Shown here: piece after piece, positions 1 to 10,822 of the stretch
Layout: the number at the start of each line of letters is the position of its first letter
Numbering within the stretch: position 1 is the first letter of the stretch
Assembly (NCBI GenBank): GCA_021820445.1
Contig: JAKADN010000011.1
Location: 1 to 39,549, forward strand
Direction: 5' to 3'
Length of the DNA stretch: 39,549 bases
Source of the DNA: Nitrospirota bacterium
Lineage (GTDB): Bacteria > Nitrospirota > Leptospirillia > Leptospirillales > Leptospirillaceae
Notes under the pieces: model-generated
Database searches by the model: none
Seen by the model: the letters and a program-made list of their open reading frames with translations, nothing else
Told to the model about the DNA's origin: nothing
Made by a program: the position numbers and the translations under genes

Positions 1-230
1 TGGTGAGGCTGGGAGGTCGTCTGGTCCGGGTCGATCCCAGGAACACGTCCCGGGCCTGTTTCGTCTGCGGTCACGTGTCGAAAGAGAACCGGCCGGACCA
101 AGCGACGTTCCAGTGCGTCTCCTGCGGGTACAAAGACCATGCGGACGTGAACGCCGCATGGAACATTCTCAGGGCGGGGCACGCCCGAAGCGCCTGTTCG
201 GAGGGAACTCCCTCCGAGTCGGTGGCCTGA
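1..230 (+). CDS. tnpB: TnpB/OrfB transposon-associated RNA-guided nuclease, C-terminal fragment
   Basis: Only the C-terminal ~75 residues lie in the window; the gene runs in from the left edge, with the reading frame starting at base 3. The fragment holds the OrfB zinc ribbon: a CxxC pair (CFVC), a second CxxC about 18 residues on (CVSC), then DHADVNAAWNI, whose Asp matches the last RuvC catalytic acid of the family. TnpB proteins of IS200/IS605 elements are RNA-guided nucleases and not the transposase itself. No tnpA is visible here. The stop at 228-230 is followed by a hairpin-rich stretch expected for the element's right end. Family assignment is firm; whether the full protein is intact cannot be seen. 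Confidence 0.9.
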   Translation, partial: VRLGGRLVRVDPRNTSRACFVCGHVSKENRPDQATFQCVSCGYKDHADVNAAWNILRAGHARSACSEGTPSESVA

Positions 231-3362: not shown

Positions 3363-3391
3363 TTGACAACGATTTCTCCAAAGCGTATTCT
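3363..3391 (+). promoter_or_regulatory. Sigma-70-type promoter for first oxidase unit
   Basis: TTGACA (3363-3368), 17-base spacer, TATTCT (3386-3391). The -35 is perfect and the -10 matches 4 of 6. It lies about 90 bases before the GTG of the first small membrane protein, in the divergent gap with the VIT gene, and would drive the unit that ends at the terminator at 5350-5384. Confidence 0.55.
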
Positions 3392-3482: not shown

Positions 3483-3719
3483 GTGGCTCAAAGTCATCAG
3501 AAAGGTATCGTGGCCTATTGGCTCGGTGCAGCCTTCTCGGCAGTGGGAAGCGGATCAGTTGTCGGGTTTTGTCTGCAGGAGTGGTTCGGTGCCCATCGGT
3601 TTGAAACATGGCGTGAATCCTACATCTGGATTTACTGGATCATGGTGCTTTCCACGATTGCTGGTGCCCTTATCGGGCTTTACTCCTACTCCTATCACAG
3701 AAAGCGCGAAGGCTGGTGA
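3483..3719 (+). CDS. Small two-helix membrane protein, oxidase cluster
   Basis: 78 residues from a GTG start with an AAGGGGG ribosome site five bases upstream; the frame is open further upstream but without a better start and across the promoter. Two hydrophobic helices are visible (about residues 11-30, YWLGAAFSAVGSG..., and 47-69, YIWIYWIMVLSTIAGALIG), joined by a His/Trp-containing loop, with a basic C-terminus (YHRKREGW). I recognise no family. As the first gene of the unit carrying ccoO it may be an accessory subunit or assembly factor of the terminal oxidase; this is inferred from position only. Confidence 0.7.
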   Translation: MAQSHQKGIVAYWLGAAFSAVGSGSVVGFCLQEWFGAHRFETWRESYIWIYWIMVLSTIAGALIGLYSYSYHRKREGW

Positions 3720-3779
3720 TCATGCGCTTTTCCTGTGGAGTCAAAAGGTCTGAATCCTAAAAATTTGGGAGGTGCCAGT

Positions 3780-4004
3780 ATGTGGATGTTAAGTGCAATT
3801 ACATCGCTTTCAAGCGCACAACTTAAAGAGCTTTCCGATCCGAGCCATTGTTGTGGAATGACACCCGGGGGCGCCAGTCAGGGAGTTGCGTCCTTTGCGG
3901 CCTTTATGGGAACTTCGACTGCTATTGGTAGCATGGTGCTGTTGCTTGTTTGTATGTCGGGGATTGCTGGACGGGCGAAATTCGATCCTTCTCGCAAGAA
4001 ATAG
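3780..4004 (+). CDS. Small membrane protein with CC motif, oxidase cluster
   Basis: 74 residues, ATG start preceded by GGGAGGTG. The N-terminal third is polar with a His-Cys-Cys group (PSHCCGM, residues about 22-28); a Gly/Ala-rich hydrophobic stretch (about 37-61) probably spans the membrane once. The C-terminus is basic. An in-frame ATG exists beyond about 15 codons further upstream, but the ribosome site favours 3780. No family is recognised. The adjacent cysteines and histidine could bind a metal such as copper, but that is conjecture. Confidence 0.65.
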   Translation: MWMLSAITSLSSAQLKELSDPSHCCGMTPGGASQGVASFAAFMGTSTAIGSMVLLLVCMSGIAGRAKFDPSRKK

Positions 4005-4026
4005 GGTGTCCGGATGGGAAAGGAAT

Positions 4027-4073
4027 GCCGGGGTCCCCGGCCTCCTTTTCTTGGGGTGCGGATCACTTCCGCA
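4027..4073 (+). promoter_or_regulatory. Tandem hairpins in the leader of ccoO
   Basis: The 134-base gap between the 74-residue gene and ccoO holds two hairpins: GCCGGGG/CCCCGGC (4027-4041), followed by a pyrimidine run CTCCTTTTCTT, and TGCGGA/TCCGCA (4057-4062 with 4068-4073). The first resembles a weak intrinsic terminator, so the pair may set the ratio of upstream to downstream product. No gene is seen in the gap. Confidence 0.4.
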
Positions 4074-4138
4074 TCTGGAATGTCTTTCATTCCTGAATGG
4101 AAGACAGATTAAAACTCAAGAGCGTTAAGGAGTGCGAG

Positions 4139-4669
4139 ATGGCATTTCGCGAGTACAAATTTGGCGTTATGATGACCGGAACTGTGTTTGCTGTGACGTT
4201 GTCCATTACAGTGTTGTTTCCGGCCATGGAGATGAGCAAGGTTCCCCCCTCCGCAACAGCCATCCAGAAGTCCAAAGACTACGGTCCGGAGAGCGGGTTC
4301 ACCATCGAAGATCCCTTCATGACGGGTGAGGATCGTCCGACCATGATCGGAAAGGGAAAGGTTATCTTTGTCCGGGAAGGATGCTGGTGGTGCCATACCC
4401 TTCTTCCTGAACAGACCCAGGACTGGCAGTATTTCGGTGCCCCTCCCAGGGTTTCGGACTTTGTCGGAGAGTCCCCGACCGTTTTCGGTTCGGACCGTAA
4501 GGCTCCGGATCTTCTCCATGTCGGGAGCCGTCTGCCCATCAAGGGGTGGCATCTTGTCCATCACGCCAACCCCCGCGCGGTTCAGCCCATGTCTCAGATG
4601 CCCGCCTTCAACTATCTTTCTAAGAGAGATTTGAATGCGTTGGCTGATTACATGATGAGCCTCAAGTAG
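4139..4669 (+). CDS. ccoO: cbb3-type cytochrome c oxidase monoheme subunit (CcoO/FixO-like)
   Basis: 176 residues. One N-terminal anchor helix (about 8-29), then a periplasmic cytochrome c domain with GCWWCH (C82, C85, H86) and the family-typical run CHTLLPEQTQDWQYFG. Met151 or Met154 (PMSQMP) is the likely axial ligand. CcoO passes electrons from soluble or membrane cytochromes to the catalytic subunit CcoN at the periplasmic face. It is slightly shorter than usual (about 200). ATG start with AAGGAG a few bases upstream; an earlier in-frame start at 4097 lacks a ribosome site. No full-length ccoN lies beside it, which is unusual. Confidence 0.88.
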   Translation: MAFREYKFGVMMTGTVFAVTLSITVLFPAMEMSKVPPSATAIQKSKDYGPESGFTIEDPFMTGEDRPTMIGKGKVIFVREGCWWCHTLLPEQTQDWQYFGAPPRVSDFVGESPTVFGSDRKAPDLLHVGSRLPIKGWHLVHHANPRAVQPMSQMPAFNYLSKRDLNALADYMMSLK

Positions 4670-4681
4670 TTCTTCAATAGG

Positions 4682-4719
4682 AGCCGAGCTCTTTGATGAC
4701 TCTTTCAAAGAGCTCGGCT
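4682..4719 (+). terminator. Strong hairpin after ccoO (no U-tract)
   Basis: A perfect 15-bp inverted repeat (4682-4696 with 4705-4719, 8-base loop) begins 12 bases after the ccoO stop. It is not followed by a T-run, so it is more likely an mRNA-stabilising or processing hairpin than a true terminator. Confidence 0.5.
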
Positions 4720-4789
4720 TCGGGTATAGCTGACACTCAAATCGGACCGAAATGGTGGTCCCATGAATACCTCTGAAAGGAGAGGCATT

Positions 4790-5122
4790 ATGGCTGATGT
4801 CGAAGAGCTTTTGAATGAACGCTTTGATGGAATGCTCGAGGGGACGAACAATATCCCGGGCATCATCATTCTTCTTCTTGTGATGACAGTGGTCACGGCG
4901 GAACTTCTGACCTTTCCCCTGTTCGGAGCGCGTCCCCAGCTTCCAGGACACCTTCATTATTGGCTTGTTCAGGGAGTTCCCGTTTTGAAAGCCCATACCT
5001 CGCCCAACTTGGCCCGTCCGTGGTGGGATCAGGGTTATGTGATTAATTCGATCTATGTGTCGATCTTCTTCACCTGGGTCGGTTTGTTGATGAAAAGAAC
5101 GGAAGTTGCTCGGGATTTTTAA
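4790..5122 (+). CDS. Two-helix membrane protein, oxidase cluster
   Basis: 110 residues, ATG start after GAAAGGAGAGG; an earlier ATG at 4763 is in frame but lacks a ribosome site. An acidic N-terminus (about 1-30) precedes a helix (IPGIIILLLVMTVVTAELL), a loop rich in Pro, His and Trp (PQLPGHLHYW, ARPWWDQG), and a second helix (YVINSIYVSIFFTWVGLLM). The orientation puts the His/Trp loop on one face of the membrane. I know no family for it. Its place between ccoO and a 34-residue membrane peptide suggests an oxidase-associated subunit (inference). Confidence 0.7.
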   Translation: MADVEELLNERFDGMLEGTNNIPGIIILLLVMTVVTAELLTFPLFGARPQLPGHLHYWLVQGVPVLKAHTSPNLARPWWDQGYVINSIYVSIFFTWVGLLMKRTEVARDF

Positions 5123-5193
5123 GGAATATTCGTTACGGCTAGGCCCGGCAACTTCTTTGTGTTCCACTCACAATCCAAAGGGAGGTGAGTCCT

Positions 5194-5298
5194 TTGTGGA
5201 ATGTCAATAGTCCTATCGTTTTCTGGAGCATCACGTTGATAATGCTTTTCTCTGCACTCATTTATTCCTTCTTCATCGACGATGTGAAGCCTGAATAA
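5194..5298 (+). CDS. 34-residue single-helix membrane peptide
   Basis: A TTG-started frame of 34 residues, beginning MWNVNSPIVFW and ending IDDVKPE, with one hydrophobic helix (about 7-27). The case for translation is a very strong ribosome site, GGGAGGTGA, eight bases before the TTG, plus the position as last gene before a perfect terminator at 5350. An in-frame GTG at 5185 is possible but overlaps the ribosome site. The size and layout recall the tiny CcoQ/CydX-type oxidase subunits, but there is no sequence match I can claim. Confidence 0.6.
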   Translation: MWNVNSPIVFWSITLIMLFSALIYSFFIDDVKPE

Positions 5299-5349
5299 TC
5301 CTTAGGCTTTATGAAGAAGCTTGGCGGGGAATTTGGGCCCCGTATACAT

Positions 5350-5384
5350 AAAAAAGGCGGTTTCCTGCGGAGGCCGCCTTTTTT
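5350..5384 (+). terminator. Rho-independent terminator dividing the oxidase cluster
   Basis: AAAAAAGGCGG (5350-5360) pairs with CCGCCTTTTTT (5374-5384), with an inner CCT/AGG pairing; the T-run follows the GC stem directly. It ends the first oxidase unit, and the flanking A/T runs could make it work on both strands. Confidence 0.88.
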
Positions 5385-5396
5385 ATTGCTTTAAGG

Positions 5397-5426
5397 TTGC
5401 GGATATTTGTCAGGCGGGTGTACAAT
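5397..5426 (+). promoter_or_regulatory. Candidate promoter for second oxidase unit
   Basis: TTGCGG (5397-5402), 18-base spacer, TACAAT (5421-5426; 5 of 6). It sits right after the terminator and 20 bases before the first gene of the second unit. The -35 is weak. Confidence 0.4.
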
Positions 5427-5445
5427 CGGGTTTGCGAGGTGTTGC

Positions 5446-5652
5446 ATGTCGATTAAAATGTCTGTTTCTGTTGTGATTTTTACTTTTCTCACGGCCTCGG
5501 TTATCACCTTTGCCATCATGTCCCGCTATATCATCGGTCCCTTCAAAAAGCTCAAACGCGGAGAACAGGTCATCATCGCGATGAGCTTTGTCGGTATTAT
5601 CAGCGTTATATCCTTTGCCATTATTCAGTTATTAATGAGAATCCTGGTGTAA
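5446..5652 (+). CDS. Two-helix small membrane protein, oxidase cluster
   Basis: 68 residues from ATG 5446, preceded by GCGAGGTG; a second in-frame ATG lies four codons on. Helix 1 is about residues 5-26, helix 2 about 41-66, with a short basic loop (FKKLKRGEQ) that should be cytosolic by the positive-inside rule. No family is recognised. It is the first gene of the second unit and ends 7 bases before the cytochrome c gene, so they are probably co-translated. Confidence 0.65.
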   Translation: MSIKMSVSVVIFTFLTASVITFAIMSRYIIGPFKKLKRGEQVIIAMSFVGIISVISFAIIQLLMRILV

Positions 5653-5659
5653 CGGCCGA

Positions 5660-6091
5660 ATGAAAACGGGCGAAAAAGTCGTATTTCTCCTTTCAGGATT
5701 AATGGTATTGTCAGCAGTTGTTCTTTACGTTTTGGCACGAATGAACGTGGTGACCTTCTGGACGACAAACGACATCTACCTTTTTTCAAAAAAATCAGAT
5801 GCCGGCTATCAGGTCTTCCAGAAATATGGTTGCCGGGATTGTCATGTCGTTTATGGTGAAGGCGACTATGACGGTCCTGACATGGACGGGGAAGGAACGA
5901 GGCGCACTGCCGATTGGCTTCACCGCTATTTCGACAATCCAGGCTCCCTTGTTCCAGGGACGGCTCATGCAGGAAAGTTCGCGCCAACTTTCAGCAAGTT
6001 GTCGCCGAAAGAGAAAGACGAACTCGTCGATCTCTTGATGAGCCTGAAGTCGTTGCCTGGTTCCCCGAATTATCCAAAGCCTCCCAAGTAA
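5660..6091 (+). CDS. Membrane-anchored monoheme cytochrome c
   Basis: 143 residues. One uncleaved anchor helix (about 7-26), then a single c-type domain with CRDCH (C58, C61, H62). The domain ends in the usual C-terminal helix (LSPKEKDELVDLLMSLK). In related oxidase-type cytochromes the axial Met sits just before the Pro that precedes this helix; here the stretch reads HAGKFAPTF, with no Met there. A His (H103) lies a few residues upstream, so bis-His or another ligation is possible. Probably carries electrons to an oxidase at the periplasmic face. It follows the 68-residue gene closely. Confidence 0.85.
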   Translation: MKTGEKVVFLLSGLMVLSAVVLYVLARMNVVTFWTTNDIYLFSKKSDAGYQVFQKYGCRDCHVVYGEGDYDGPDMDGEGTRRTADWLHRYFDNPGSLVPGTAHAGKFAPTFSKLSPKEKDELVDLLMSLKSLPGSPNYPKPPK

Positions 6092-6130
6092 GGGGCTTTT
6101 GGGAGTTAGCCAAAATATAAGGAGCTACCA

Positions 6131-6343
6131 ATGAAACTGCCAGAAGGGATTGTTGCCTATCTGTGGACGGCAACCGGTCTTGTTTCACTTGTGATTATTG
6201 TCTTCGGGATCTATTGGGCCTACAAAAATGGCCAGTTTGATGAAAATATCAAGTATATTATTTTCAACGATGAAGACGGAGACACACAAAAACCCCCTCA
6301 CGAACAGGCGGAAGCCCACCCCCCGGCACCCAAAGGAAAGTAA
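6131..6343 (+). CDS. ccoS: CcoS/FixS-like cbb3 oxidase assembly protein
   Basis: 70 residues: one N-terminal helix (about 8-29), then the family-like motif WAYKNGQFDEN and an acidic stretch (NDEDGD), ending in a Pro/His-rich tail. CcoS is needed for cofactor insertion into the cbb3 oxidase catalytic subunit. ATG start with AAGGAGC seven bases upstream. The order differs from the classical ccoGHIS, since ccoH and ccoI (copper ATPase) are absent from the window. The match is by motif, so the symbol is likely but not certain. Confidence 0.72.
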   Translation: MKLPEGIVAYLWTATGLVSLVIIVFGIYWAYKNGQFDENIKYIIFNDEDGDTQKPPHEQAEAHPPAPKGK

Positions 6344-6376
6344 TTTTCGATATCAGCCTTTTCAAAGAGGTCGTGT

Positions 6377-6817
6377 TTGAAAAAGAAATTAAACCGGATC
6401 AACGCAATCGTTGGAATTGCCTCTGGATTCCTGCTGTTCTGGGTGGCAGACAAAGTTTTTGGTTTGACGAATGGGGCGTTTCATCACATTTTTGGAACAG
6501 GCATCCTCTTCTCTTATCTCCTTGCACCGCTTGCCGTCTCCCTAGTCACGGGTTACATCATCGGACCCTATGGAAAGCTGCTGGCTCCCGTGCCTCCGAT
6601 GGGATACCTGCTTTTCTCCTATCTGTATGAAGTCTATCATCCCTCAGGACAGACGGTTGGAATACCGGTGGCTCCCTTCATGATGATTTTCTTCATAACG
6701 GTTCCGGAGGTATCGTTCCTGGGAGGATATGTCGGCGAGGTCATCCGGAGGAGACGCTCCTCGGGGAAGTCCGGAGAAGGCCGACCCAGATCGAGGGGCC
6801 CTGAAAGGGTTTCCTGA
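6377..6817 (+). CDS. Polytopic membrane protein of unknown function
   Basis: 146 residues with about four hydrophobic segments (roughly 9-28, 37-62, 74-87, 97-122) and a strongly basic, Ser/Arg-rich C-terminal tail (from about residue 123). Starts at TTG, with AAGAGG six bases upstream. Histidines in the first loop (AFHHIFG) and a conserved-looking YHPSGQ are the only polar features. I recognise no family. It sits between ccoS and a short subunit-I-like protein. Confidence 0.62.
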   Translation: MKKKLNRINAIVGIASGFLLFWVADKVFGLTNGAFHHIFGTGILFSYLLAPLAVSLVTGYIIGPYGKLLAPVPPMGYLLFSYLYEVYHPSGQTVGIPVAPFMMIFFITVPEVSFLGGYVGEVIRRRRSSGKSGEGRPRSRGPERVS

Positions 6818-6836
6818 ATTTGAAAAGAGGGACATC

Positions 6837-7412
6837 ATGAATCAGGCCAGCGAGACAGAACGGTTAAACAGTCCGACAGATCGGCTGGGACTTCGGTTTA
6901 TTCTTTTCGGAGTTTTTTGTCTGTTTGTCGGAACGCTCCAGGGTTTTCTCCAGTCCACCCCCAGAATTCGCCACTGGGTCCATATGACCGGACAGGCCGG
7001 CCATTTGGTGGACCCATTGGCCCATGCCCATATCAACCTTATCGGAGGAGTGGTATCGGTTGTCATGGCCATGGTGTATTACCTTCTTCCAAGACTTTCC
7101 GGGAGACAGATATGGAGCCAGATGTTAGGGGAGTTGAGCTTCGTTTTCATGGTTTCGGGGGTCCTGGCCTTCTATAGCGTTCTTCTGACATTCGGCATTC
7201 TGGAGGGAAACAGGATGCTCGATCAGGGGATCGTCTATCCATTGGCGAGGGCCGTCTATCAGCCCTATCACAAAATTGGATTCGTGCTGGCGGCCCTTCT
7301 GATGGGGATCGGTCACTGGACCTTCGTCTTCAATGTTTTTGCCACCGTCTGGTCCCGTGACCCCAAAAAGGGTTTGGAGACGATGACGCGGCCCGCGAAG
7401 GAAAGGGTTTGA
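6837..7412 (+). CDS. Short heme-copper-oxidase subunit I-like membrane protein (paralogue A)
   Basis: 191 residues with about four membrane helices. ATG with AAGAGG six bases before; the open frame extends upstream through another gene. The central motif AHAHINLIGG followed by a helix ending YYLLPR resembles the helix II heme-ligand region of CcoN/NorB-type subunits, and there are further His residues at RHWVHMTGQAGH, YHKIG and GHWTF. It is far too short for a 12-helix catalytic subunit and lacks the helix VI-VII copper site. It probably binds heme b or acts as an accessory subunit. A second copy of the fold lies at 8571. The stop overlaps the next start (TTGA). Confidence 0.75.
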   Translation: MNQASETERLNSPTDRLGLRFILFGVFCLFVGTLQGFLQSTPRIRHWVHMTGQAGHLVDPLAHAHINLIGGVVSVVMAMVYYLLPRLSGRQIWSQMLGELSFVFMVSGVLAFYSVLLTFGILEGNRMLDQGIVYPLARAVYQPYHKIGFVLAALLMGIGHWTFVFNVFATVWSRDPKKGLETMTRPAKERV

Positions 7413-8548
7413 GCAGGATGGAAGAGGAAAAAAATAAGGAAATACTTGAAAGTAAAACTCCCTCCGACAATCTAGAAAAGAAGGCATCCCCTCGGATCAG
7501 TTCTGACGACGACGATCTGGCCCCCGCCGAAATGTCCCCCTGGCAGCTCCCCTGGAAGGCCATTACAATCACCTTTGTCCTTCTCATCCTCATTGCCGGG
7601 GCCGTTCATGTCGTGGGACTGGCGTCGAACAGGATCGTCCGTCTTTCGACGGCAGGGGTCCGAAAGCATGGCACCGCCCCCGGAGAATTTCGTCCGATGG
7701 GGGGAGTCCTGACGGAAGCCCTTCCCGGGACGAACGCATCCAAACTCAGCGCAGCATCGAAGAGCCTCCAGGAAGGGAAAAATCTCGCTCCGACCCCCCA
7801 GATCAATGTTGACGCTTCGGGGTACAAAATTCCGCAGGGATTCGTCCTGATCCCGGCGGGTCCATTTTGGATGGGTTCCGAAGACAACTTCGCCAACTTC
7901 GACGAAAAACCGGTGCACAAGGTTTTCCTGCCCCCTTTTCTGATTGAGAAAACCCTGGTGACAAACAGGGAGTACAAGGAATTTGTTGACGGGGCCCATT
8001 ATATTCCGCCCGCCAACTGGAAACACGGAACCTATCCTCCTGGAAGGGGCGACTACCCTGTGACCTTTGTGTCCATGGACAATGCCAAGGACTATGCGCG
8101 ATTCAGGAGCGGGAGGTTGTGTACGGAGGAGGAGTGGGAAAAGGCCGCCCGGGGCGTAGACAAGAGAATGTGGCCGTGGGGTGATGTCTGGGATCCCAGA
8201 CGAGCCAATGCGAATTATACTGTCGGAGACACCTCCCCCGTAAACCGGTATCCCATGGGAGCCAGCCCCTATGGCGTTCTCGACATGGCCGGGAATGTCT
8301 TTGAATGGACGAGCTCGAAGTATAGACCCTATCCGGGAAACACGGCTAACAAGGCCCGGTTCTATTCCTATCGGGTCGATGCGACGGGAGCTCTTCATCC
8401 CGTCAAGGGAAAGTCCTACTTTGTGTTGCGTGGGGGATCCTGGAAGAGCGATCAATACAGCGCCCGGGTCAGCGCCAGAAATCCGACCTGGCCATTCTAT
8501 GCCTCGGACTTTTTCGGGTTTCGCCTTTGCATGGATGCAAAACGATAA
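7409..8548 (+). CDS. Membrane-anchored SUMF1/formylglycine-generating-enzyme fold protein (NirV-like)
   Basis: 379 residues: an acidic cytosolic N-terminus, one helix (about 50-71), a linker, then an FGE-sulfatase fold from about residue 141 (GFVLIPAGPFWMGS) to the end, including GRLCTEEEWEKAARG, YGVLDMAGNVFEWTSS and RGGSW (341-345). True FGEs have a catalytic Cys pair shortly after the GGS motif; here that stretch has no Cys, so formylglycine formation is unlikely. SUMF1-fold proteins (NirV) occur in nitrite reductase operons, so a structural or maturation role for the oxidase is inferred. The start is TTG 7409 (coupled to the preceding stop) or ATG 7418. Confidence 0.82.
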   Translation: MSRMEEEKNKEILESKTPSDNLEKKASPRISSDDDDLAPAEMSPWQLPWKAITITFVLLILIAGAVHVVGLASNRIVRLSTAGVRKHGTAPGEFRPMGGVLTEALPGTNASKLSAASKSLQEGKNLAPTPQINVDASGYKIPQGFVLIPAGPFWMGSEDNFANFDEKPVHKVFLPPFLIEKTLVTNREYKEFVDGAHYIPPANWKHGTYPPGRGDYPVTFVSMDNAKDYARFRSGRLCTEEEWEKAARGVDKRMWPWGDVWDPRRANANYTVGDTSPVNRYPMGASPYGVLDMAGNVFEWTSSKYRPYPGNTANKARFYSYRVDATGALHPVKGKSYFVLRGGSWKSDQYSARVSARNPTWPFYASDFFGFRLCMDAKR

Positions 8549-8570
8549 ATGAACGGTGGAGGAGTCTGTC

Positions 8571-9173
8571 ATGACGAGGGATGAAAAGATCAAGGATTAC
8601 ATCATGAAGTTTTACTACGCCTGTCTCCTGTACGCGATTATCGGCTTTTCCTGGGGTGCGGTGATGGGCGGGGTGGAAACCTTTCGGAACTTCGTCCAGG
8701 CCGGCGCAGGGGGCCCCTCCGATCTGATCGTGCTCGGACACACCCATATCAATCTTCTGGGGTGGGTCGAAATGGCGATCTTCGGTTCGATGTATTTTAT
8801 TGTCCCGAAGATATTCAATGGTCCTCTTTACAGCTACCGACTTCTGAAAATTCATTTCTGGATGCACAACATCAGTCTCGTCGGAATGGTCCTCGCCTTT
8901 TGCATCGCCGGATACAAGGGCGGAATGATCCTTCTCCACGGAAATGTGGCCGATATCAAGCCCGTGGAAGCCCCTTACATGGAAATGGTCGGGATCTTCG
9001 GCCTTTTCGTCCTTCTGGCCAATATCATCTTTGCCTATAACATCTACATGACGGTCCAGGTGGCCAAGGGACGGCGTCAACTCCCGGCCAGCGAGCGCGA
9101 AGAGACTCCCGCCGGAATCATGCCTGGCATGTCGCCATCGGCCGGAACGCTCCGCCAGTCGGGAAATCATTGA
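8571..9173 (+). CDS. Short heme-copper-oxidase subunit I-like membrane protein (paralogue B)
   Basis: 200 residues with about four helices. ATG start with GGAGGAG seven bases upstream. Helix 1 (YYACLLYAIIGFSWG) is followed by GHTHINLLGWVEMAIFG, then a helix ending YFIVPK, a His-rich turn (KIHFWMHNIS) and a last helix (LLANIIFAYNIYMTV). The order matches the N-terminal part of the heme-copper oxidase subunit I family, but the copper-site helices are missing. It shares HINL(L/I)G and layout with the protein at 6837, so the two probably arose by duplication and may pair. The C-terminal 40 residues are polar. Confidence 0.78.
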   Translation: MTRDEKIKDYIMKFYYACLLYAIIGFSWGAVMGGVETFRNFVQAGAGGPSDLIVLGHTHINLLGWVEMAIFGSMYFIVPKIFNGPLYSYRLLKIHFWMHNISLVGMVLAFCIAGYKGGMILLHGNVADIKPVEAPYMEMVGIFGLFVLLANIIFAYNIYMTVQVAKGRRQLPASEREETPAGIMPGMSPSAGTLRQSGNH

Positions 9174-9445
9174 AAAGCGGCCGTCTTTTGACAAGACTTT
9201 ACAAACCCCTTCTCCTGGGGGCAATATGGGGATTGGGGATCGTAGGCCTACCGGATTTGTCCTGGGCCTACCTTCCCCGGTATGTTCACGTTACTCTGGG
9301 ACTTCCCTGGTTTGCCTACCTTTTCTTTTTGCTGGGGGTCCTGGTCCCCGTCTTTCTCTATCTTGGAATTTCCTGGTATTTCAAGCGGGAGCTGGAGCAG
9401 ACGGGACACGGCAAGGGACCACGGGACGAAGATTCCGAGGAGTAG
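9170..9445 (+). CDS. Two-helix small membrane protein, oxidase cluster
   Basis: 91 residues from a TTG that overlaps the preceding stop (ATTGA). An alternative in-frame TTG lies six codons on. Helix 1 (about 12-33, LLLGAIWGLGIVGLPDLSWA) could also be read as a signal peptide with a WA-Y junction; helix 2 spans about 45-68. The C-terminus is charged (GHGKGPRDEDSEE). No family is recognised; membrane placement and operon position suggest oxidase association. Confidence 0.62.
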   Translation: MKSGRLLTRLYKPLLLGAIWGLGIVGLPDLSWAYLPRYVHVTLGLPWFAYLFFLLGVLVPVFLYLGISWYFKRELEQTGHGKGPRDEDSEE

Positions 9446-9493
9446 GAACTCCGGGGGCGGCTCATTCACTCAAGGAACGGGAGCCCTCATTCC

Positions 9494-10822
9494 ATGGAAC
9501 AGACGCAACCTCTCATACCGATGCCGAAAATCGGCACTCAGCCAGTCAAAACCCAAAAAATCCGGGTCACCCATATTCGTTACGCCGTACAGATCGCTGT
9601 CATCCTGCTCCTGATCACCCTGCCATTTACCGGTATCTTTCATATCGACCTTTCGACCGGACGGTTCGTTTTGTTCGGATACCAGGTATGGTGGAGCGAT
9701 TTCTTTTTGATCCTTCCTTTCTGGCTTTTTGTGATCACAGCCATGACGGCTGTCTATGCCGTCCTCGGGATGGTCTATTGCGGTTGGGCCTGCATTCAGA
9801 ACACCTTTGCCGAGTGGACGAACGGGTTGGCCAAGCTGGCCTTCGGGTCCGCAACGCTTGGGCCCGGGATCGGAGAGGTCTCTCTTTCCGCCCCTCGGAT
9901 CCGGAAGGTTTCTTTTTTCAGGAAGGGAGTCCAGTGGTCGATCTTCCTGGCGGGCGTGACCCTGTTTTCCCTCGTCGTGTCGGTGATCATAACGGCCTAT
10001 GTGATCCCTCCGAAGACTCTGTATCAGGATCTCGTCACGGGCCGCAACCATACCGCCTACTGGCTGATCTTCGGAATCGGGGGAGTGATGTTTCTCAATC
10101 TTCTCCTCGTCCGGCACTACTGGTGCAAATGGGTCTGCCCCTACCCTCTCTGGCAGCACATGTTCAAGACGGACGACACACTGAAGGTGGCCTTTGACCA
10201 CAAACGCCGAAACGAGTGCACCGGGTGCAATCTGTGTGTCAAATCCTGCTTTATCGATATCGACCCGAGGGATACGAAAAACTATTCGAGGTGCATCAAT
10301 TGCGGTGAATGCGTGGTGGCCTGCGAAGACTATTCGGCCAAGAGGGGCCTTCCGTCCTTGCTGACCTTTCACAAGAACGGGGTCTATGTTGATACGGACG
10401 GGGTCATGAAGGGGCGGAAGCTTTCTCCGGGCACCGTCCGTTTTGTCGTGGCCGGGATCGGAAGTCTCTTTCCACTGGCTCTCTTTATCTACGGGATTGT
10501 GACCTATTCCCCCTATCATGTGACGGTCAGTCAGGTCCCCGGTCGACTGGACCAGTTCGAGGTGGGACTTTACAACAAGACCCCCAGGCCTGAACAGTTC
10601 ACCATCGCCCAATCCGGATTGCCCTCCGATCGCGTCGCCTTCGAAACGACGAAGGTCGCCATTCCGCCCGGAGAGCACCGGAAAATTTATTTCACCGTGA
10701 ACTCCGGGCGGGATCTCCCTCCCGGTCTGCACAATTTCACTGTGACCGTGAATGCCCGAACACCCAACCCCGGACAGTACAGTCAGGCGGCGACGGTGTA
10801 TCTTCTGGGCGGGAAGTCCTAG
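9494..10822 (+). CDS. ccoG: Cytochrome c oxidase accessory protein CcoG (FixG/RdxA)
   Basis: 442 residues. N-terminal membrane helices (about 31-50, 65-95, 147-171, 189-207), Cys pairs YCGWAC (C96, C100) and WCKWVC (C211, C215), two 4Fe-4S motifs (C242, C245, C248, C252 and C267, C270, C273, C277), another helix near 318-338, and a C-terminal immunoglobulin-like FixG domain to the end. CcoG is a copper(II) reductase that supports copper delivery to cbb3 oxidases. It ends the plus-strand run and overlaps hisS tail-to-tail by four bases. Its presence is the best evidence that this locus serves a copper-containing oxidase. Confidence 0.93.
   Translation: MEQTQPLIPMPKIGTQPVKTQKIRVTHIRYAVQIAVILLLITLPFTGIFHIDLSTGRFVLFGYQVWWSDFFLILPFWLFVITAMTAVYAVLGMVYCGWACIQNTFAEWTNGLAKLAFGSATLGPGIGEVSLSAPRIRKVSFFRKGVQWSIFLAGVTLFSLVVSVIITAYVIPPKTLYQDLVTGRNHTAYWLIFGIGGVMFLNLLLVRHYWCKWVCPYPLWQHMFKTDDTLKVAFDHKRRNECTGCNLCVKSCFIDIDPRDTKNYSRCINCGECVVACEDYSAKRGLPSLLTFHKNGVYVDTDGVMKGRKLSPGTVRFVVAGIGSLFPLALFIYGIVTYSPYHVTVSQVPGRLDQFEVGLYNKTPRPEQFTIAQSGLPSDRVAFETTKVAIPPGEHRKIYFTVNSGRDLPPGLHNFTVTVNARTPNPGQYSQAATVYLLGGKS

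Follow-up and report, generated by a model that had tools for sequence, protein, structure and literature searches.

Gene content of the operon

The window analysed here, a 39,549-nucleotide stretch of a Leptospirillaceae (Nitrospirota) contig, carries at positions 3483–10822 a 14-gene operon on the plus strand in which ccoO-, ccoS- and ccoG-like genes are present and a full-length ccoN is absent, as stated in a preliminary description of this DNA. The operon is kept across the Leptospirillaceae. When relatives were compared, as that description had proposed, the gene order proved unchanged in 12 related loci over the part that each contig covers, and this repetition places the locus far beyond chance. 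The predicted genes are the following:

3483–3719, plus strand: sA, a 78-aa membrane protein kept in 11 Leptospirillaceae homologues
3735–4004, plus strand: sB, a small membrane protein, start uncertain, with a weak match in a second Nitrospirota family
4097–4669, plus strand: CcoO-like membrane monoheme cytochrome c, CWWCH motif (FixO, E = 9e-18, score below the NCBIfam equivalog cut-off)
4763–5122, plus strand: sC, a headless CcoP-like membrane protein with the FixP N-terminal motif and without the heme c domain
5185–5298, plus strand: 37-aa single-helix protein, 65–97% identical in every Leptospirillaceae locus covering the stretch
5446–5652, plus strand: sD, a membrane protein of about 68 aa, start uncertain, kept in Leptospirillaceae
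5660–6091, plus strand: cytC, an N-terminally anchored, NorC/CcoO-like monoheme cytochrome c, CRDCH motif (Cytochrom_C, 4e-8)
6131–6343, plus strand: CcoS-like protein (FixS, 2e-4, weak on its own)
6377–6817, plus strand: sE, hydrophobic, probably four helices (homologue in the second-family module, 1.5e-12)
6837–7412, plus strand: N1, 191 aa, four transmembrane helices, HAHINL motif (COX1, 6e-15)
7409–8548, plus strand: FGE/SUMF1-like protein with an N-terminal membrane anchor (PF03781, 2e-50), overlapping N1 by 4 bases
8571–9173, plus strand: N2, 200 aa, four transmembrane helices, HTHINL motif (COX1, 4e-14)
9170–9445, plus strand: sF, a small membrane protein overlapping N2 by 4 bases
9494–10822, plus strand: CcoG-like ferredoxin-type copper/oxidase assembly protein (TIGR02745, 2e-37, score under the curated cut-off)

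Seven small membrane proteins (sA, sB, sC, the 37-aa ORF, sD, sE and sF) lack a clear family, in agreement with the earlier count of at least six. The cytC and FGE-like genes, which lie between the named genes, had gone unmentioned. The CcoS-like protein is the sole match in its own and sister genomes, and the CcoG-like protein has one clear copy per genome in the Leptospirillaceae genomes tested. The FixP_N match of sC, 0.04 in the window, reaches 5e-4 and 2e-3 in sister genomes. cytC also matches the NorB cytochrome c-like domain (1e-4). Neither hmmsearch nor hhalign linked sE to any CcoN arc. sD is 62% identical to its counterpart in the other genus. A scan for promoters stayed near chance (8 sites found, 5.7 expected), with the best site at 3363–3391, upstream of sA, and an Rfam scan gave no matches.

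The FGE-like proteins of the Leptospirillaceae carry the sequence RGGSWKSDQYS, with Ser at what we take to be the position of the FGE active-site cysteine pair, and other Cys residues are present in the second family, in an alignment that holds no reference FGE. The window protein is probably not an FGE.

N1 and N2 and the helices of subunit I

By profile and structure comparison, N1 and N2 are the equivalents of helices IX–XII of heme-copper subunit I, with the HxH motif, which supplies the heme b3/b ligands, at helix X. Searched quarter by quarter against full-length relatives, their profiles scored best on the C-terminal quarter (19–58 bits for N1 and 25–68 bits for N2); none of the other quarters gave more than about 24 bits. 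hhalign placed N1 on CcoN columns 299–461 and N2 on columns 336–450. Against NorB in the PDB, N1 alone gave 21 vs 22 bits on two arcs, an ambiguity that the full-length oxidases removed. N2 matches the CcoN of 3mk7 at 8e-16, with about 30% identity to CcoN helices X–XII. AF2 single-chain models predict four long helices for N1 (pLDDT 81) and four helices for N2, the latter matching CcoN chains in Foldseek (6e-5).

The two proteins had previously been taken as half-size versions of subunit I with an HxHxNL motif like that of helix II. Their lengths of roughly 190–200 residues and the motif itself stand; the helix II assignment was rejected in favour of helix X, and of the 12 helices each protein represents roughly a third, not half. 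The CuB helices VI–VII are absent from both N1 and N2, as had been noted, and only helices IX–XII are present rather than about 12.

H56, H63, H65, H145 and H160 of N1 are invariant across both families, and the HxH is invariant in N2 and its relatives. Between the window and another genus, N2 (82% identity) and N1 (71%) are conserved like the core subunits CcoO (80%) and CcoN (74%), while CcoG (51%), sE (49%) and cytC (57%) are less similar. N1 was found at full strength in 16 of 21 Leptospirillaceae genomes; a 17th gave a weak match to CcoN. In the tree, both proteins branch away from the CcoN of their own lineage.

A ccoN in trans and a split arrangement in a second family

A full-length ccoN is encoded alone elsewhere in Leptospirillaceae genomes, about 100 kb away in one closed genome. 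The RPxH, HAH, WWxxHN and YxxxxxHH motifs are invariant in the nine aligned sequences, and by these motifs the heme, CuB and Tyr ligand set of a cbb3 oxidase is complete in the trans-encoded CcoN. In the window's own genome (88.7% complete), neither a second strong FixO/ccoO, nor a CcoP, nor a complete ccoNOP operon was found, the last being the arrangement that would have spoken against an oxidase-subunit role; one closed relative has a further ccoO copy, apart from ccoN. No FixP_N above the cut-off was found in nine genomes, and sC retains the N-terminal segment of CcoP alone. Some described C-family oxidases lack CcoP.

In all four genomes of a second Nitrospirota family, the same parts are divided between an oxidase operon (loci L053 and L054: sB-like, sA-like, ccoN, ccoO, sC-like) and a separate module (L041 and L043: ccoS, cytC, sE, N1, FGE-like, N2, sF-like, ccoG), the homology of each part to the window proteins having been checked by profile search. 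The sA homologue lies immediately upstream of ccoN (L054, 8549–8764, 1.4e-6; also in L055 and L053), the CcoO proteins share 54.5% identity, and the sC homologue follows ccoO (7e-11). sB weakly matches a protein of 71 aa whose gene lies two positions upstream of ccoN (L053, 10838–11053, 8e-5; 0.04–0.1 in two other loci). In the module, homologues of cytC (1e-17) and CcoS (5e-14) were detected, as were weak ones of sF between N2 and ccoG (0.002–0.1); a profile search of the second-family loci gave no sD homologue. The order of the N1/N2 module is the same in both families. Judged from these homologies, the Leptospirillaceae operon is the second-family oxidase operon minus ccoN, joined to the module.

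In a set of 396 Nitrospirota genomes, this ccoN subfamily (full-length matches above 850 bits, with 280 for the next best) and N2 (above 170 bits, with 72 for the next best) occur in the same two families only, and all 8 genomes of these families with a completeness of 90% or more have both. The CcoN proteins of the two families are sisters (100/100), separate from other Nitrospirota CcoN. A single inheritance or transfer common to the two families, and not repeated selection, may lie behind this joint presence.

For ccoO, sA and sC there is good support for the earlier suggestion that the locus provides parts for a CcoN from another place in the genome: their second-family homologues flank ccoN, and the Leptospirillaceae ccoN stands alone elsewhere. 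The other suggestion, an undescribed accessory or electron-transfer complex, remains plausible for N1, N2, cytC, the FGE-like protein and sE, because these are encoded at a locus of their own in the second family.

Proposed role and comparison with known systems

We propose, with a probability of roughly 0.5, a divergent cbb3 oxidase whose non-catalytic half comes from this operon, with the N1/N2 module as an integral part that replaces electron entry through CcoP. The CcoN encoded alone elsewhere would receive from the operon CcoO, the headless CcoP-like sC and the small membrane subunits, with CcoS and CcoG as assembly proteins, and cytC, sE, N1, the FGE-like protein and N2 would form a conserved accessory module. 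N1 and N2 may be old, free-standing versions of helices IX–XII that kept both helix-X histidines. Helix II, the source of the other low-spin heme ligand in CcoN, is missing from both, so heme binding would need a partner; a pairing of N1 with N2 is the probable form in which they could carry b-type heme. Together with cytC and the membrane-anchored FGE-like domain, they would take over the role of CcoP in electron entry. Homology, helix assignment, gene order, co-occurrence, histidine conservation and the finding of no CcoP are results of the analysis; that these proteins are expressed together with CcoN and associate physically, that N1 and N2 pair and bind heme, and in which direction electrons flow, we infer. 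N1 and N2 are probably heme-b-binding accessory membrane subunits of this oxidase. We hold only tentatively the more specific proposal of a heme-b-binding N1/N2 heterodimer inside a cbb3-type complex, which would add extra b hemes and represent, as free-standing copies of the C-terminal repeat, a living example of the four-helix unit from which subunit I may derive.

The presence of CcoS and CcoG within the module of both families, where they are the only clear copies in most genomes tested, also fits an assembly role, in which N1, N2, sE and the FGE-like protein would assist heme or copper insertion or the folding of CcoN and be absent from the mature enzyme. The second-family module stands apart from the structural operon and also encodes a thioredoxin-fold, SCO-like protein, recognised by sequence inspection alone. 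However, N1 and N2 evolve at the pace of CcoO and CcoN while CcoG and sE evolve faster, the module holds a heme c protein, and we know of no cbb3 assembly factor that resembles a subunit I fragment; we consider this explanation possible but rather improbable. Its own locus in the second family means that the module could also be a separate complex. In that case cytC, sE, N1, the FGE-like protein and N2 would form a membrane redox complex merely co-regulated with the oxidase, which might, for example, exchange electrons between cytochromes of the periplasm and a carrier in the membrane. CcoN is more distant from N1 than are other heme-copper subunits and those of NOR type (NorB being the best match of N1 in the PDB, with Azoarcus and Paraburkholderia oxidases also near), and cytC is similar to the cytochrome c domain of NOR. 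The strict co-occurrence with one CcoN subfamily, the fusion in one operon with ccoO in the Leptospirillaceae and the inclusion of CcoS and CcoG make such independence unlikely.

Subunit I consists of three pseudo-repeats of four helices, and N1 and N2 (four helices each in the models) and sE (probably about four) could in principle be its three pieces, giving a catalytic oxidase or NO reductase. Yet no similarity of sE to any quarter of subunit I was detected, on which ground this split 12-helix enzyme was rejected, N1 and N2 are both of the IX–XII type and not complementary, no CuB/FeB histidine set is present and the genome encodes an intact CcoN, leaving this arrangement very improbable. 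Decaying remnants of a lost ccoN would explain why N1 and N2 lack two thirds of subunit I, but their strong conservation across genera and between both families and their branching apart from the CcoN of their own lineage led us to reject this origin, which the identical module order also renders scarcely credible.

The publications consulted on Leptospirillum, a major iron oxidiser in acid mine drainage and bioleaching, describe its oxygen reductase as a cbb3 oxidase without further distinction, and a published Leptospirillum "cbb3" qPCR primer maps to the ccoO-like gene (4536–4555, one mismatch). In the literature that our search covered, we found no earlier description of the locus and no paper joining Leptospirillum with ccoO. 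If N1, N2 and their partners are subunits of the divergent cbb3 oxidase, the Leptospirillum enzyme would be built differently and take up electrons by another route, perhaps in keeping with a donor of high potential at very low pH. If N1 and N2 bind heme, they would bear on the origin of the three-repeat heme-copper oxidase fold and offer a natural test system for it.

Among known systems, the TO complexes of Manganitrophaceae were rejected as a match, being bd-like. The operon shares CcoO, CcoS and CcoG homologues with cbb3-type (C-family) oxidases encoded by ccoNOQP with ccoGHIS, but here ccoN lies outside, CcoP is represented by its N-terminal segment (sC) alone, and N1, N2, sE, cytC and the FGE-like protein form an extra module. 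The window protein shares the PF03781 domain of the FGE/SUMF1 family and differs in its membrane anchor and in the Ser at the presumed cysteine-pair site. As in cNOR (NorCB), cytC has a NorC-like layout and N1 finds its best PDB match in NorB (9e-9), although the locus has no FeB ligands and no full NorB, and N1, N2 and sE no FeB-site helices. Short solo COX1-like proteins of other Nitrospirota (about 125–165 aa) are of the same four-helix type with HxH, and two of them group with N2 (94/89, on long branches); unlike N1 and N2, they have no paired N1/N2, FGE or ccoO neighbour where the neighbourhood is readable. A further likeness is to helices IX–XII of CcoN, NorB and other subunits I (PDB 3mk7, 9g6b, 4xyd and 8smr; TMq 0.61–0.66), with which N1 and N2 share four helices, a similar predicted fold and an HxH starting helix X, N2 also having the HFW at helix XI. 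In contrast to heme-copper subunit I, both proteins are free-standing and lack helices I–VIII, the CuB ligands and the helix II heme ligand.

Organization of the operon in Leptospirillaceae

The source draft genome (2.22 Mb, 88.7% complete) carries at window positions 3483–10822 an operon of 14 genes, all on the + strand and mostly separated by short gaps; N1 and FGE overlap by 4 bases, as do N2 and sF. The genes are arranged in the following order:

sA, small membrane protein
sB, small membrane protein
ccoO
sC, small membrane protein
37-aa ORF
sD, small membrane protein
cytC, membrane monoheme cytochrome c
ccoS
sE, small membrane protein
N1 (6837–7412, +), short subunit-I-like protein
FGE-like, PF03781 protein
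N2 (8571–9173, +), short subunit-I-like protein
sF, small membrane protein
ccoG

Domain searches identified CcoO, cytochrome c, COX1 (N1 and N2), FGE-sulfatase and CcoG, and weakly CcoS. The comparison of gene order across relatives proposed in the preliminary description revealed an identical order, including the 37-aa ORF, wherever the contig of the related locus reaches far enough. A family search matched N1 in 17 of 21 Leptospirillaceae genomes, one match (G014) being a weak one to CcoN; the genomes lacking a match are 71–89% complete. In one relative, an HNH, IS200/IS605-associated IscB-like gene (L014:6859-8238, characterized by sequence inspection) lies between sE and N1, both intact. 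At the contig edge, window positions 3–230 encode the C-terminal end of a TnpB/OrfB-like transposase.

Outside Leptospirillaceae, strong N2 matches in the phylum scan (>170 bits) were found only in a second Nitrospirota family, in 4/4 genomes seen, where the genes occupy two loci:

Locus A: small proteins, sB-like, sA-like, ccoN, ccoO, sC-like
Locus B: ccoS, cytC, sE, N1, FGE-like, N2, SCO-like protein, sF-like, (sensor-like), ccoG

The sensor-like protein precedes ccoG in three of the four B loci. Part-by-part profile searches between the families supported ccoO, sC, sA, cytC, ccoS, sE, N1, FGE, N2 and ccoG, with a weak and uneven match for sB, a marginal one for sF, and no counterpart of sD or the 37-aa ORF in the second family. 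Together, this split and the part-by-part homology indicate that the Leptospirillaceae operon corresponds to locus A minus ccoN, followed by locus B. Another membrane protein, whose motif is HIH or HVH (L041:8048-8647, L043:7474-8091), is encoded upstream of the module in the second family, next to a CopZ-like protein and a CbiMQO-like transporter of the Ni/Co type.

CcoN, CcoO and CcoP across genomes

The search for a ccoN elsewhere, and for a ccoO of its own, that had been suggested from the sequence located ccoN away from the operon, with no ccoO beside it in G004, G009, G011 or G001. Of the three CcoN-type genes in the window's own genome (L019:9742-11115, L020:9053-10267, L021:9648-10691), which are 87–93% identical to one another, one is complete and the other two are truncated at contig ends. 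The closed genome G004 has a single ccoN, located at 753.7 kb; its operon is found near 649–655 kb. CcoN keeps its catalytic ligands. The operon's ccoO is the sole strong FixO match in the own genome; G004 carries an additional ccoO encoding an identical protein, far from the operon and from ccoN (L031:7061-7591). CcoP was not found in nine genomes, and sC resembles only the N-terminal segment of FixP. A published qPCR primer for a 'cbb3' gene of L. ferriphilum (PMC6695575) maps to the operon ccoO (window 4536–4555, one mismatch), so that the expression data of that study appear to report the operon under study.

An alignment of CcoN from the two families was scanned against the same 396 Nitrospirota genomes as N2, the phylum to which in-depth scanning was confined. 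Full-length matches above 850 bits were confined to the two families, the next best reaching 280 bits. This CcoN subfamily and N2 occurred together in 19 genomes, including 8/8 genomes of these families at least 90% complete, a co-occurrence that amounts to few independent events since only two families are involved; four genomes of the families, 71–89% complete, had one of the two but not both.

Placement of N1 and N2 on subunit I

When N1 and N2 family profiles were run against six full-length subunit I proteins and scored by quarter, both scored highest on the C-terminal quarter, helices IX–XII; the weak secondary scores on the remaining quarters are what the pseudo-threefold repeat of subunit I predicts. 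Using hhalign, N1 aligned to CcoN columns 299–461 and N2 to columns 336–450, and the two proteins aligned with each other along their entire length (98.5% probability). In AF2 single-chain models, each protein shows four long helices, with a mean pLDDT of 81 for N1 and 78 for N2. The top-ranking Foldseek matches of N2 were CcoN chains of cbb3 oxidases (E 6e-5); those of N1 were subunit I chains of oxidases or NOR, at E values of 0.02 at best. The HxHxNL motif, previously likened to helix II, is therefore reassigned to helix X.

In a tree of helices IX–XII, N1 and N2 formed separate long branches (the program warns of long branches) outside CcoN of their own lineage, and N2 clustered (94/89) with short, free-standing proteins from other Nitrospirota. 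Annotated plasmid matches to N1 and N2, among the matches listed, were full-length oxidase genes. One solo COX1-like protein, 127 aa long and carrying an HSH motif (L046:7818-8201), is encoded beside a CRP/FNR-type regulator in divergent orientation; other Nitrospirota commonly have short proteins of this kind.

Proposed role of the module

Most likely, CcoN is served in trans by CcoO, sC, sA and other small proteins, and N1 and N2, with cytC, sE and the FGE-like protein, would be accessory subunits of the same oxidase. An assembly role for N1, N2 and their module partners, or a separate complex formed by them, are real alternatives. Identity to another genus (N2 82%, CcoO 80%, N1 71%, sC 71%, FGE 68%, CcoG 51%, sE 49%) supports what may be a core rather than auxiliary role; CcoN of the own genome is 74% identical to that of G004.

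H56, H63, H65, H145 and H160 of N1 are invariant in both families; in N2, H57 and H59 stay unchanged even when the alignment includes CcoN and short proteins, and H95 and H99 are invariant among the N2 rows. These conserved ligands suggest that N1 and N2 could bind heme, in which case, as both lack helix II, the second ligand must come from a partner or another histidine. In CcoN itself, the helix X histidines hold heme b3 and heme b, as seen in cbb3 structures such as 3mk7.
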